Both the position numbers and the translations under genes were made by a program. A stretch of 64,000 nucleotides of DNA, taken from NCBI RefSeq assembly GCF_023516505.1, contig NZ_JAMGBB010000001.1, forward strand, positions 2,279,001 through 2,343,000, written 5' to 3'. The notes beneath the pieces are model-generated. The model was not told where the DNA came from and made no database searches. It saw nothing but the letters and a program-made list of their open reading frames with translations. The stretch comes from Sphingomonas brevis. Its GTDB lineage: Bacteria > Pseudomonadota > Alphaproteobacteria > Sphingomonadales > Sphingomonadaceae. This document shows positions 41,392-45,201 of the stretch, in pieces; the stretch's first letter is position 1, and each line of letters begins with the position of its first letter.

Positions 41392-42171
41392 CTATCGGGA
41401 CAGTCGCTTCAACCCGTCGAGATGGAGCGCTTCCAGCGCATGGGCCGCGCAGTCCAGCGAATCCGACACGAAATAGAGTGGTTGGAAGGCGTCGCTGCGG
41501 TAGGCGGCATTGGCAGCATCGTGCAGCGTGAAGCGGGGGCGCGGCACGTCAGCCTCGATGGCGAAATGCGCCTCGCCGAAGCTCGACGCCAGGCCGGCGC
41601 CGAGGATCTTCACCTCGCCGCGCTCGCGGGCAAGACCAAACTCGACGGTGTGCCAGTAGAGCCGCGAAATCGTTTCACCCTGTCCGCTTGCGACTGCCTC
41701 CACGCCAAGGCGCCCCATTGCCTCCATCAGCCGCGCGACCGGCTCATGCGCCAGCAGCGGCACATGACCGAAAATGTCATGGAAGCAATCGGGTTCCTCG
41801 AGATAGTCGAGATTGTCGGCCGAGCGGATGAAATTGCCGATCGGGAAGCGCCGCTCCGCCAGCATGGCGAAAAAGGCATCGTCCGGAACCAGCCCCGGAA
41901 CAGAAACGCAGCGCCAGCCCGTCAGCGTCTCCAACCGTTCATTGAGGCGCCCCAACTCGGGAATGCCCGGCCGGTCGAGGCTCAGCTTGGGAATGCCTTC
42001 GAGAAACGGCGTGACGATCCGCGACCCGAGGTAGGGCAGTTGCCGCGCGAACAGCGTGTCCCACACGCCGTGCTCTTCGGCGGTGAAATGATGCCAGTCC
42101 TGCGCAGCGAGATAGTCCTGCCAGCGCGCAGGCTGGGGTTTCTCAATCTCGGCGAAATCGGGCTGGAACAT
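41392..42171 (-). CDS. phhA: Phenylalanine 4-hydroxylase (PhhA)
   Basis: A 259-residue non-haem iron, tetrahydropterin-dependent enzyme converting phenylalanine to tyrosine. Iron ligands are the two His of DCFHDIFGHVP and the Glu of LYWHTVEFGL. Length fits the bacterial catalytic-domain-only form. ATG 42171 is supported by AGGAGT six bases upstream. It lies downstream of phhB and an MFS gene and is preceded by a leader peptide and terminator that look like a tyrosine-responsive attenuator. Confidence 0.97.
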   Translation of the reverse strand: MFQPDFAEIEKPQPARWQDYLAAQDWHHFTAEEHGVWDTLFARQLPYLGSRIVTPFLEGIPKLSLDRPGIPELGRLNERLETLTGWRCVSVPGLVPDDAFFAMLAERRFPIGNFIRSADNLDYLEEPDCFHDIFGHVPLLAHEPVARLMEAMGRLGVEAVASGQGETISRLYWHTVEFGLARERGEVKILGAGLASSFGEAHFAIEADVPRPRFTLHDAANAAYRSDAFQPLYFVSDSLDCAAHALEALHLDGLKRLSR

Positions 42172-42199: not shown

Positions 42200-42232
42200 A
42201 AAAAAACCCCGCCGAAGCGAGGCTTGGCGGGG
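42200..42232 (-). terminator. Leader terminator (attenuator) before phhA
   Basis: Read on the minus strand, CCCCGCC (42232-42226) pairs with GGCGGGG (42213-42207). The stem extends through AAGC/GCTT to a CTC loop, then a run of seven T (42206-42200). It stands 28 bases upstream of the phhA start, so it would stop transcription before the gene. Confidence 0.85.
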
Positions 42233-42267
42233 CGGTGGTTCCGGGCTGGGCGCGTCCCGCCTCAGCC
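42200..42267 (-). promoter_or_regulatory. Predicted antiterminator/terminator switch
   Basis: GGCTGAGGCGGG (42267-42256) can pair with CCCGCCAAGCC (42231-42221) through GGCT/AGCC and GGCGGG/CCCGCC, with small bulges between. This uses the terminator's left arm and so excludes the terminator. The leader stop codon (42264-42262) lies inside the antiterminator arm, so a ribosome reaching it would block antitermination. This is an inference from base pairing. Confidence 0.7.
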
Positions 42268-42351
42268 GGTCTCCACCGCGTCAAGATAATAGAGGGCCGC
42301 GGCCTGACACACGGTCGGCGCAACAAGGAAAAGGACGGCGGTTGCGGTCAT
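42262..42351 (-). CDS. Leader peptide with adjacent Tyr codons
   Basis: A 29-codon frame starting MTATAVLFLV and ending ALYYLDAVETG. The start ATG (42351-42349) overlaps the MFS stop as TGATG, with AAGG upstream. The two Tyr codons TAT TAT are at 42291-42286, 18 bases before the antiterminator arm. That is the geometry expected if a ribosome stalled for charged tRNA-Tyr frees the arm. The peptide itself probably has no other function. Confidence 0.75.
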   Translation of the reverse strand: MTATAVLFLVAPTVCQAAALYYLDAVETG

Positions 42352-43670
42352 CAGGGACGCCTTATCGCATCATCACCCTGAACGGAAGATGGCCGGTTAC
42401 GATCCCGTCGCGGCGCGGTTTCGTCCATCGTCAGGAACAGCGGCAGCACCGCTAGGGCGACCACCGCGATCATGACGCCCGGCACACTCGGCCAGCCGGT
42501 GGTTTCCAGCAGTCGCTGCGCGACATAGGGCGTCAGCCCACCGAAGAGTGCAGTCGCGAAAGTCGCGCCAAGCGCCAGCCCGCTGAGCCGTCCCTCGCCC
42601 CCGAACTGCTCGGCGGTGGCGACCGCGCCGACCGCGCTGATTCCGCCCGCAACCATAGCCAGGACGACGGCGCCGAGCAGCACTCCGGCCTGGCTGGCGC
42701 CCGCCATCAGCGAGAACATCGTCGCCGGCAGGATGGCGCTGGCAAGGCACAGGGCGGCGAGCACCGGCTTGCGGCCATGGCGGTCCGACAGCAGGCCCAC
42801 GAGCGGCGTCACGGCGATCACCATCACCGCCGCCAGGGTCGACAGCCACAACGAATCCGCTTCGGCCATCGCGCCTGCCGTGGTCAGGAACGCCGGTACA
42901 TAGGTAATGCCGACATAATAGGTGATCGAACCCAGCGAGGAGATAGCAAAAGCCCGCAAGATGCCGCCTCGGTGCCGGGTCAGGGTGTGACGGATCGGAT
43001 TGTCCGGCACCGTCCCTTCCACTCGCTGCCGCTCGAAGTCGGGAGATTCGGCCATTGCATGGCGGGCGATCCAAACGCTTCCTGCCAGCAATGCGCCGAA
43101 CAGGAAGGGTATCCGCCAGCCCCAGCTGTCGAGGTCGGGCCCGCTCAACAGGCTGACGGTGACAGCCGAAATGCCGACCGCGAGCAGGGCGCCGACTTCA
43201 CTGGCCGCCGCGGCGAAGGAAGTGACGAGTCCGCGCCGCTCGTCCCTTGCTCCTTCCAGCAGATAGGCAACGACTCCCGTATATTCGCCGCCGACCGCGA
43301 AGCCCATCACGCAGCGCAGCAGTATCAGCGCCCATCCGGCCGCGGGGCCGATTGCCGCGCGCGTGGGCAGCAAGGCGATCGCCAGCATCGCTGCGGTCAT
43401 CAATGCGACCGACAACAGCAAGGTTTGACGCCGGCCGAACCGGTCGCCGATATGGCCGAAGAACAGGGCCCCGAGGGGACGCATCAGATAGGCGATGGCG
43501 AAACCGGCCAGGGTAATGAGCAGCGAATCATGGCCGCCGCCGAAGAACACGCGGGAAAGGACCGTCGCGAAGTAGAGATAGAGGGTAAAATCATACCATT
43601 CGACGATGGTAGAGAAGGCAGCGATCGCCTTCGACCCGCGCGATACCTCCACCGCGGCAGGATCAGCCAC
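42351..43670 (-). CDS. MFS transporter, metabolite:H+ symporter (MHS) type
   Basis: A 439-residue, twelve-helix transporter. It has EWYDFTLYLYFATVLSRVFF at TM1, GHIGDRFGRRQTLL between TM2 and TM3, and FAVGGEYTGVVAYLLEGA near TM4-5, typical of the ProP/KgtP-like MHS branch. It starts at GTG 43670, overlapping the phhB stop by 8 bases. Its place between phhB and phhA suggests aromatic or keto-acid import. Confidence 0.9.
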   Translation of the reverse strand: MADPAAVEVSRGSKAIAAFSTIVEWYDFTLYLYFATVLSRVFFGGGHDSLLITLAGFAIAYLMRPLGALFFGHIGDRFGRRQTLLLSVALMTAAMLAIALLPTRAAIGPAAGWALILLRCVMGFAVGGEYTGVVAYLLEGARDERRGLVTSFAAAASEVGALLAVGISAVTVSLLSGPDLDSWGWRIPFLFGALLAGSVWIARHAMAESPDFERQRVEGTVPDNPIRHTLTRHRGGILRAFAISSLGSITYYVGITYVPAFLTTAGAMAEADSLWLSTLAAVMVIAVTPLVGLLSDRHGRKPVLAALCLASAILPATMFSLMAGASQAGVLLGAVVLAMVAGGISAVGAVATAEQFGGEGRLSGLALGATFATALFGGLTPYVAQRLLETTGWPSVPGVMIAVVALAVLPLFLTMDETAPRRDRNRPSSVQGDDAIRRP

Positions 43671-43917
43671 CGGCCAGCCCGTTGATGGCCTTCGCCAGAT
43701 CGATGTCGCGGTCGGTCACGCCGCCCGTGTCATGAGTCGTCAGGCGAAAGTCGACCCGGTTCCAGACGTTGGTGAATTCCGGGTGATGATCGACCTTCTC
43801 GGCGTACATCGCGACGCGGGCAATCAGGCCGAATGCCTCCGAAAAATCCTTGAAGCGAAAGCTCCGCTCCAGGGCCTTGCCGTCATCGCTCAGTGTCCAG
43901 CCTTGGGGAATATCCAT
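43663..43917 (-). CDS. phhB: Pterin-4a-carbinolamine dehydratase (PhhB)
   Basis: An 84-residue protein that dehydrates 4a-hydroxy-tetrahydropterin, regenerating the cofactor used by PhhA. The signature VDHHPEFTNVWNRVDFRLTT contains the catalytic His pair. ATG 43917 (MDIPQGWTLSDDG) is preferred because AAGGGG lies five bases upstream; GTG 43923 is the alternative. It is the first gene of phhB-MFS-phhA and divergent from hpd. Confidence 0.95.
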   Translation of the reverse strand: MDIPQGWTLSDDGKALERSFRFKDFSEAFGLIARVAMYAEKVDHHPEFTNVWNRVDFRLTTHDTGGVTDRDIDLAKAINGLAGG

Positions 43918-44080
43918 CGGCACCCCTTATCACCGCCATCCAATTATTTCCTGTCCTACAGACGATACGGGAGCTAGGGGAGCGCCGACATGACTTGCTT
44001 GCCGCTCAAGCCGTCGCAAGGGCCCGTTTCACGGGCGTGACTCGTGCGCGCACGCGTTGCTAGTGTGAACTTTGTGACGT

Positions 44081-44093
44081 TTCGCGGCGCGAA
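44081..44093. promoter_or_regulatory. Short palindrome before hpd
   Basis: TTCGCG-G-CGCGAA is a 13-base palindrome ending 16 bases before the hpd start, in the 192-base divergent phhB-hpd gap. It could be a regulator site; it is short enough to occur by chance in G+C-rich DNA. Confidence 0.35.
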
Positions 44094-44109
44094 GACTGGA
44101 GAAAATATC

Positions 44110-45201
44110 ATGGCCACCGCCACTTCCGTCGAGCTCGGCCCGCTGGGACTGGAGAACCCGATGGGCACTGACGGCTTCGAGTTCGTCGAATATGCCGCAC
44201 CGGATCCCGAGCTTCTGCGCTCGCTGTTCGCCAAGATGGGCTTTCCGGCCGTCGCCCGGCACAAGCGCAAGAATGTGACGCTGCACCGGCAGGGCGACAT
44301 TAATTTCATCATCAACGCGGAAGCCAATAGTTTTGCCGAGCAGTTCGCGGTCGATCATGGCCCCTGCGCCTGCGCGATGGCGTTCCGGGTCAAGGACGCC
44401 AGGGCCGCCCATGCCCGCGCGCTCAGCCTCGGCGCGACCGACGTCAAAAGCGACGTCGCCGAGGGCGAGCTGGACATACCGTGCATCGAGGGGATCGGCG
44501 GGTCGCGGCTCTACTTCGTCGACCGTTACGGCCGCACCGGCACCATCTACGACGTCGACTTCGACTATTTACCCGACGCGGCCCAGCAGGAAGCGAGCCA
44601 TGCTTCCCACCTCACCTATCTCGATCACCTGACCCACAATGTGAATCGCGGCCGGATGAACCATTGGGCCGAATTTTACGAGCGGCTCTTCAACTTCCGC
44701 GAGATCCGCTATTTCGACATTGAAGGAAAGGTCACCGGCCTGTTCTCCAAGGCGATGACCAGCCCCTGCGGAAAGATCCGCATTCCCCTGAACGAGAGCC
44801 AGGACGACAAGAGTCAGATCGAGGAGTTTTTGCGCGAATATAAGGGCGAAGGCATCCAGCATATCGCGCTTGGGTCGGACGACATCTACCAGACGGTCGA
44901 CATCCTTCGATCGCGCGGAATTCCGTTCCAGGACACGCCAGACACTTATTATGAGCTGGTCGACGAGCGGGTGAAGGACCATGGCGAACCCACTGCCGAG
45001 CTGGAAAAGCGCCGCATCCTGGTCGACGGAGCCCCGACCGAGGGCCAGGGCCTGCTGCTTCAGATCTTCACTCAGAATGTGATCGGACCGATCTTCTTCG
45101 AGATCATCCAGCGCAAGGGCAACGAGGGTTTCGGCGAGGGCAATTTCAAGGCGCTGTTCGAGAGCATCGAGCTCGACCAGATCCGCCGCGGGGTGGTTTG
45201 A
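44110..45201 (+). CDS. hpd: 4-hydroxyphenylpyruvate dioxygenase
   Basis: A 363-residue non-haem iron enzyme converting 4-hydroxyphenylpyruvate to homogentisate in tyrosine breakdown. Two VOC-type domains are present. The metal ligands are His in YLDHLTHNV, His in IQHIALGSDD and Glu in GPIFFEIIQR, and GFGEGNFKALFESIE is the typical C-terminal lid. ATG 44110 has GGAGA upstream. Later genes of homogentisate breakdown (hmgA, fah) are not in this window. Confidence 0.97.
   Translation: MATATSVELGPLGLENPMGTDGFEFVEYAAPDPELLRSLFAKMGFPAVARHKRKNVTLHRQGDINFIINAEANSFAEQFAVDHGPCACAMAFRVKDARAAHARALSLGATDVKSDVAEGELDIPCIEGIGGSRLYFVDRYGRTGTIYDVDFDYLPDAAQQEASHASHLTYLDHLTHNVNRGRMNHWAEFYERLFNFREIRYFDIEGKVTGLFSKAMTSPCGKIRIPLNESQDDKSQIEEFLREYKGEGIQHIALGSDDIYQTVDILRSRGIPFQDTPDTYYELVDERVKDHGEPTAELEKRRILVDGAPTEGQGLLLQIFTQNVIGPIFFEIIQRKGNEGFGEGNFKALFESIELDQIRRGVV

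Follow-up and report, generated by a model that had tools for sequence, protein, structure and literature searches.

A putative tyrosine-sensing attenuator ahead of phhA in Sphingomonas

What controls the expression of phhA in Sphingomonas brevis is the question raised by a compact region on the minus strand of the window, the stretch of 64,000 nucleotides that was analysed here. The gene itself (41392-42171, minus strand) is the putative target of regulation and encodes a biopterin-dependent aromatic amino acid hydroxylase (Pfam PF00351, E 1.9e-38), whose score of 245 bits against the NCBIfam model for phenylalanine 4-monooxygenase lies slightly below the cut-off of 264.75. Enzymes of the PhhA family form tyrosine from phenylalanine. 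Judging from comparative sequence evidence, the region preceding phhA would act as a transcription attenuator of the ribosome-mediated type. It would respond to charged tRNA-Tyr and govern the only tyrosine-forming enzyme recognised in this genome, a reading to which we assign a probability of roughly 0.85.

Leader, terminator and promoter-like motif

The leader open reading frame spans 29 codons (MTATAVLFLVAPTVCQAAALYYLDAVETG; 42351-42262, minus strand), ends in a TGA stop codon at 42264-42262 and carries two adjacent tyrosine codons, TAT TAT, at 42291-42286, which are conserved in homologues. It is followed on the same strand by an intrinsic terminator hairpin, CCCCGCCAAGC CTC GCTTCGGCGGGG (42232-42207; -18.3 kcal/mol), which lies flush with a U-tract of seven T (42206-42200). 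The sequence-only reading had already placed the leader, the tyrosine codons, the terminator and the U-tract, and all of these coordinates proved to be correct on the minus strand of the window. The U-tract ends 28 nt ahead of the phhA ATG at 42171, and an AGGAG ribosome-binding sequence is present in between. The fold of 42360-42196 has a z value of -2.5 relative to shuffled sequences, and none of 200 shuffles was equally stable. With regard to known RNA families, Rfam 15, T-box and known leaders included, gave no match to the element at the gathering score and in the window recovered only a tRNA elsewhere; the best sub-threshold match at the element was asX2, with 26.9 of 70 bits and on the opposite strand. 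Directly 3' of the U-tract, the window reads GTTGCC (42199-42194, minus strand), and an RT(T)GYC motif is found at this place in 42 of 66 homologous loci. The motif follows no other run of at least five T within the window and is possibly part of a termination or pause site.

Two genes lie upstream of the leader on the same strand, namely one for an MFS transporter (42351-43670; best NCBIfam match a metabolite/H+ symporter, below its cut-off) and, beyond it, phhB (43663-43923; Pfam PF01329), which encodes pterin-4a-carbinolamine dehydratase, the cofactor partner. The leader ATG overlaps the stop codon of the MFS gene (TGATG, 42353-42349), and transcripts reading in from this gene could couple its translation with that of the leader. 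The element had been described as internal to an operon, after phhB and the MFS gene. This description is incomplete, as the leader has a promoter-like motif in front of it and only one of the 20 relatives compared (L031) was found to have the MFS gene upstream, so that the upstream operon is unsupported as a conserved source of transcription. phhB is also found upstream in 17 of these 20 relatives. Since the upstream genes vary between species, the leader, the terminator and phhA appear to form the unit.

The promoter-like motif (42361-42384, minus strand) consists of CGTTCA at 42384-42379, a 12 nt spacer and the -10-like GATAAG at 42366-42361, which ends 9 nt before the leader ATG, and its presence there means that phhA need not rely on the upstream operon. 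In its stricter form, the motif occurs a single time in the 64 kb, at 42384-42361. A looser form (xxTTCA, 10-19 nt and a GATAAG-like box with at least four of six matches) precedes the leader ATG in 40 of the 66 loci, and in 33 of these 40 the distance from the end of the -10-like box to the ATG is 8 or 9 nt. Transcription usually starts 6-7 nt downstream of a -10 box, and a start at this distance from the -10-like box would make the leader nearly leaderless.

Conservation across the genus and beyond

The element is genuine and strongly conserved across the genus of the window. An RNA model built from 36 upstream regions was run on 71 genomes of the genus, with stricter filters that may lose weak matches, and gave 66 matches above 40 bits in 64 of the 71 genomes. 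The phhA gene is present in 69 copies in 65 of the 71 genomes, 64 of which also contain the element, and the element lies directly upstream of phhA, on the same strand, for 66 of these 69 genes. Among the matches listed for the 71 genomes, none above 35 bits lay away from phhA, and the six genomes of the genus devoid of phhA gave no match above 35 bits. Weaker second matches in two genomes (G023 and G018) are terminators without tyrosine codons. The three element-free phhA genes are both copies of G007, whose TyrA spans the whole profile, and a second copy in G010 that lies beside pieces of TyrA.

Outside the genus the element is scarce. When 396 genomes from the order were searched, two more elements came to light upstream of phhA (G402 and G206), and a further one was seen upstream of phhA in G498; a match in G349, also outside the genus, was rejected as a terminator with no phhA downstream. 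The TyrA status of G402 was taken from its genus-mates G201 and G232, both of which lack TyrA. The notion that every TyrA-less lineage carries the element was rejected, given that, among 16 phhA genes that belong to TyrA-less genomes outside the genus, 14 are without it. A separate scan for a terminator preceded by a tyrosine-containing leader detected at least one tyrosine codon in 42 of 45 loci of the genus and at least two in 38; these 45 include some genomes twice, and two loci (L023 and L030) truly have no element, with a third (L033) being missed by the scan. Applied to TyrA-positive relatives, the same scan found the element upstream of none of the 30 phhA genes covered (30 of 47 matches), and among 60 more distant loci it found none with at least two tyrosine codons and two with one.

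The tyrosine codons themselves, whose conservation in relatives had been proposed as a check, are kept in all 66 homologous elements. Within the last 16 codons of the leader, every locus has at least one, 62 have at least two and 38 at least three, amounting to 169 of 1056 codons, whereas the two remaining frames contain on average 0.02 and 0.21 tyrosine codons per 16; the leader frames of two loci (G002 and G057) were assigned by hand, and these locus counts are not independent events because the species are related. Counted from the stop codon, tyrosine occupies codon -8 in 55 of the 66 loci, codon -9 in 53 and codon -10 in 43. Downstream of the leader, a GC hairpin flush with the U-tract is present in 65 of 66 loci according to the script, which assigned a shorter stem to one of them (G069) and passed over the 66th (G085), where the hairpin is visible by eye. 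The distance from the stop codon to the U-tract has a median of 55 nt and a range of 50-61 (65 loci). Beyond the tyrosine run and the codons that form the antiterminator arm described below, the leader peptide is poorly conserved, its best-kept features being the tyrosine codons and the pairing bases, and the candidate leaders range from 18 to more than 30 codons.

Such variation in sequence and length speaks against a different reading of the leader, which we consider very unlikely, namely that it encodes a small protein acting in trans, in the way suggested for peTrpL of Sinorhizobium, with the terminator just ending its transcript and phhA being reached by leaky readthrough. A near-leaderless small open reading frame on a short RNA is indeed the anatomy of rnTrpL/peTrpL of Sinorhizobium meliloti, an alphaproteobacterial attenuator whose RNA begins at the leader ATG, as described in the part of the source covered here (PMC7298713). 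The rnTrpL leader differs in having Trp codons before trpE(G), and the leaderless start at phhA is deduced from the promoter-like motif. The trans-acting peptide and the attenuator are compatible and do not exclude each other.

Another reading would regard the hairpin as an ordinary terminator of the upstream operon, preceded by an open reading frame that arose by chance, with a promoter for phhA in the 28 nt that follow the U-tract. In genomes of this kind, a GC hairpin followed by a U-tract is nothing unusual. Nevertheless, this explanation is exceedingly improbable in view of the tyrosine codons found in 66 of 66 leaders and the covariation reported below; the genes upstream differ by species when the leader, the terminator and phhA stay together, and 28 nt leave little room for a promoter.

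Pairing between leader and terminator

In the attenuator that we favour, the alternative to the terminator would be a helix between two segments of the minus strand: arm 2, GCGGTGG (42279-42273), which lies within the last codons of the leader and covaries with 42238-42232, and arm 3, CCACCGC (42238-42232), which was delimited by pairing tests and is flush with the terminator stem, so that the best 2:3 duplex of the window shares one base with it (42232). Fold and duplex calculations also give an apical extension, in which CCGGCTG (42269-42263), over the stop codon, pairs with 42248-42241 (CAGCCCGG).

The arms of a given locus fit each other better than those of its relatives. In a swap test on 65 loci, the cognate duplexes had a mean energy of -22.4 kcal/mol as compared with -18.7 kcal/mol after swapping, a difference reached in none of 20000 permutations, and the control, an upstream segment of the leader, was not significant (2975/20000). 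A pairing map of 62 loci, from which three with irregular positions were left out (G019, G069 and G079), peaks between leader windows that begin at -18 to -12 relative to the stop codon and windows that begin at -12 to -4 relative to the terminator (z 4.2-5.0). Another spot lies between leader 0/+2 and terminator +6/+4 (z 5.3). These values are only a guide since the map also has cells down to z -4.8. When the register was fitted for each of the 65 loci, which provided 47 distinct arm pairs, the covariation score was 0.375 as against 0.165 in shuffled pairs (0/500). Paired cells amounted to 82.7 percent as against 68.1 percent (0/500), a percentage that leans towards structure, as does the slid control, because the register was picked by best pairing. 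Weaker than these two measures were the number of pairs with two-sided changes (7 of 9, as against 5.3 after shuffling; 15/500) and the number of pair types (17 as against 15.6; 106/500). The two-sided changes of the 2:3 helix include C-G/A-U/G-C, U-A/C-G and G-C/U-A. A global RNAalifold consensus recovered four terminator pairs only, with zero two-sided changes, and was replaced by the swap test, the pairing map and the register-fitted count; its poor result is explained by the register of the 2:3 helix, which differs between loci. Covariation in relatives, which had been suggested as a check on both hairpins, is seen for the 2:3 helix and not among the terminator pairs of the RNAalifold consensus.

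Among the 65 loci, the 2:3 helix runs into the terminator arm in 13, has the flush register of the window in 20, ends just short in 23 and takes other registers in nine. Its best duplex shares at least one paired base with the terminator stem in 45 of 65 loci, at least three in 39 and none in 20, and in these last the helix ends 0-3 nt before the terminator. In Sphingomicrobium relatives and their kin, it can bridge a mismatch and continue across the terminator arm.

In a rival version, the antiterminator is the one that had been drawn from sequence alone, GGCTGAGGC(GGG) at 42267-42256, which would pair with the 5' arm or loop side of the terminator and might form a pseudoknot with 42279-42273. 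A UGAGGC sequence after the stop codon does exist in eight loci (G000, G014, G046, G048, G052, G069, G073 and G086), those with a AAGCCUCGCU-type terminator loop, and the spot with z 5.3 in the pairing map also favours this version. The sequence is confined to these eight, among which the GGCGGG extension belongs to the window alone; five other loci have GCCUCG elsewhere in the terminator yet no UGAGGC, and in many others the position reads CGCGCG. We therefore regard that version of the antiterminator as unlikely, the covarying arm being 42279-42273.

Taken as an attenuator with arms 2 and 3, the element could operate as follows, its start site, stalling, antitermination and direction of control being deduced from the features above. 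Transcription would start just before the leader ATG, as the promoter-like motif suggests. With plentiful charged tRNA-Tyr, the ribosome would reach the stop codon and cover arm 2, and the terminator would form. With charged tRNA-Tyr scarce, the ribosome would stall at the tyrosine codons, so that arm 2 would remain available for pairing with arm 3. The resulting helix, either overlapping the terminator stem or abutting it, would prevent the timely zipping of the stem. RNA polymerase would then read into phhA, and phenylalanine would be converted to tyrosine.

Equilibrium folding does not reproduce such a switch. When the ribosome is placed at the stop codon, the terminator has a mean probability of 0.98 (65 loci), and with the ribosome at the first tyrosine codon its probability falls below 0.5 in only seven of 65 loci, one of which (G069) is an artefact with 0.00 in every state, its stem having been mis-set by the script. 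In the window, the probability is 1.00 with the ribosome at the last tyrosine codon and 0.88 at the first. This result counts against a simple equilibrium switch in most species. The calculation cannot decide on switching, since the proven E. coli trpL attenuator also fails it, with 0.98-0.99, and it was dropped as uninformative, even though E. coli pheL gives 0.0-0.1 at five of its seven Phe codons. Attenuation is a kinetic process.

The resemblance to trpL extends beyond this equilibrium behaviour of the terminator to a short leader with adjacent sensor codons, a stop codon just beyond the antiterminator arm and a similar distance from stop codon to U-tract (62 nt in trpL, as compared with the median of 55 here). 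The sensed amino acid and the regulated gene differ, and the antiterminator of the window abuts the terminator arm instead of covering it. pheL-pheA shares the principle of controlling a terminal aromatic step by attenuation at leader codons and differs in sensing Phe, with seven Phe codons, and in having its switching predicted by equilibrium folding. For the flush and the zero-overlap loci, the helix abutting the terminator would hinder it sterically. A more specific proposal for the 20 of 65 zero-overlap loci, which we offer tentatively and hold to be doubtful, is that the flush helix blocks the terminator stem in the RNA exit channel and not by strand exchange, an arrangement that may have arisen as tyrosine formation came to depend on PhhA alone.

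Tyrosine supply and the role of PhhA

Whether a tyrosine-sensing switch suits phhA depends on the route by which tyrosine is made. TyrA (PF02153) gave no match in the genome of the window, which is 99.99 percent complete, and scored above the cut-off in four of 71 genomes of the genus (G004, G007, G010 and G081), whereas a sample of 149 genomes from the family had it in 127; the control genomes of this search had matches in 14/14 and 13/14. Both TyrA and the element are present in G004. In G010, TyrA is split over two overlapping frames (G010:C1:176464-176924) that adjoin the second, element-free phhA, and is either a decaying gene or the product of a sequencing error. Six genomes of the genus have neither PhhA nor TyrA above the cut-off, three of them being at most 86 percent complete. 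In the family sample, TyrA is also missing from 11 other genera, and PhhA is present in 16 of the 18 TyrA-less genomes listed from these, so that PhhA may often have taken the place of TyrA in this family.

Gene order points in the same direction. In G085, one of the members whose PhhA diverges most, the order is aroA-pheA-aroC-aroB-aroE-leader-phhA, where pheA encodes prephenate dehydratase (a match that spans one TGA). G003, G004 and G075, which also belong to these members, have aroA, prephenate dehydratase and aroC ahead of the leader and phhA and in the same orientation; G007, also among these members, has the same three genes ahead of a leader-free phhA. From this arrangement, which we infer to be ancestral, phhA probably originated in this group as the final step encoded by a cluster for aromatic biosynthesis. 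The window retains the remains of such a cluster near phhA, with genes for a class II DAHP synthase, aroA and aroC at 50479-47383 (minus strand). Its chorismate synthase is short, with 304 aa as compared with 352-359 in L171, L172 and L174, and chorismate synthase is found in 48 of 71 genomes of the genus, so that aromatic biosynthesis appears patchy. Prephenate dehydratase was not found in the genome of the window and is present in 14 of 71 genomes of the genus; phenylalanine is thus probably imported or derived from an unrecognised enzyme. Since TyrA was not found and the divergent members show this gene order, PhhA is probably the tyrosine-forming biosynthetic enzyme here, and the argument of the sequence-only reading to that effect is borne out.

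The same neighbourhood can be read in terms of degradation. The neighbouring gene for HPPD (hppD; 44044-45201, plus strand) is divergent, 61 of the 71 genomes of the genus carry a homogentisate dioxygenase, and PhhA occurs in 44 of 60 TyrA-positive relatives, all of which would suit a real attenuator that serves the catabolism of phenylalanine and tyrosine from an hppD and phhB degradation locus, with tyrosine sensing as a brake on tyrosine over-production. We consider this improbable: readthrough on starvation has the wrong sign for a catabolic gene, phhA stands within an aromatic biosynthesis cluster in the divergent members, and homogentisate dioxygenase was not found in the genome of the window itself, which weakens a purely catabolic role of phhA there.

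The mechanism proposed for phhA, ribosome-mediated attenuation, is a known one, and its target is apparently new. No described phhA attenuator was found in the literature covered, to which subscription journals mostly do not belong. Putative attenuators have been reported before tyrA operons, including hisHb-tyrA of Agrobacterium (Song et al. 2005, PMC1173090); these also concern the tyrosine branch, but their target is TyrA, and phhA does not appear in the part of Table 7 covered here. Comparative genomics has likewise led to the proposal of the leader attenuators uORFC-13-1 (aroF, Phe codons) and uORFC-8-2 (cysS, Cys codons), which, in the sections of that study covered here (PMC8632094), differ from the phhA element in genes and sensor codons. 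With regard to the enzyme, Dyella, Legionella and Echinicola have been described as making tyrosine via phenylalanine hydroxylase, the first two having no identified TyrA and the last both routes, according to the portion of the source covered here (PMC7311316). The route in Dyella and Legionella is biosynthetic, as it would be here, in other lineages, and regulation is not among what that portion describes.

Bacterial phenylalanine hydroxylase is usually classed as catabolic, and a tyrosine-starvation switch before phhA, in a group that mostly lacks TyrA, would be regulatory evidence for a role in tyrosine biosynthesis. The succession of leader, terminator and phhA would also provide a simple sequence signature for biosynthetic PhhA. 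Furthermore, the registers of the 2:3 helix, which among relatives range from full overlap with the terminator to none, would make it directly testable to what extent an attenuator depends on the sharing of a strand.
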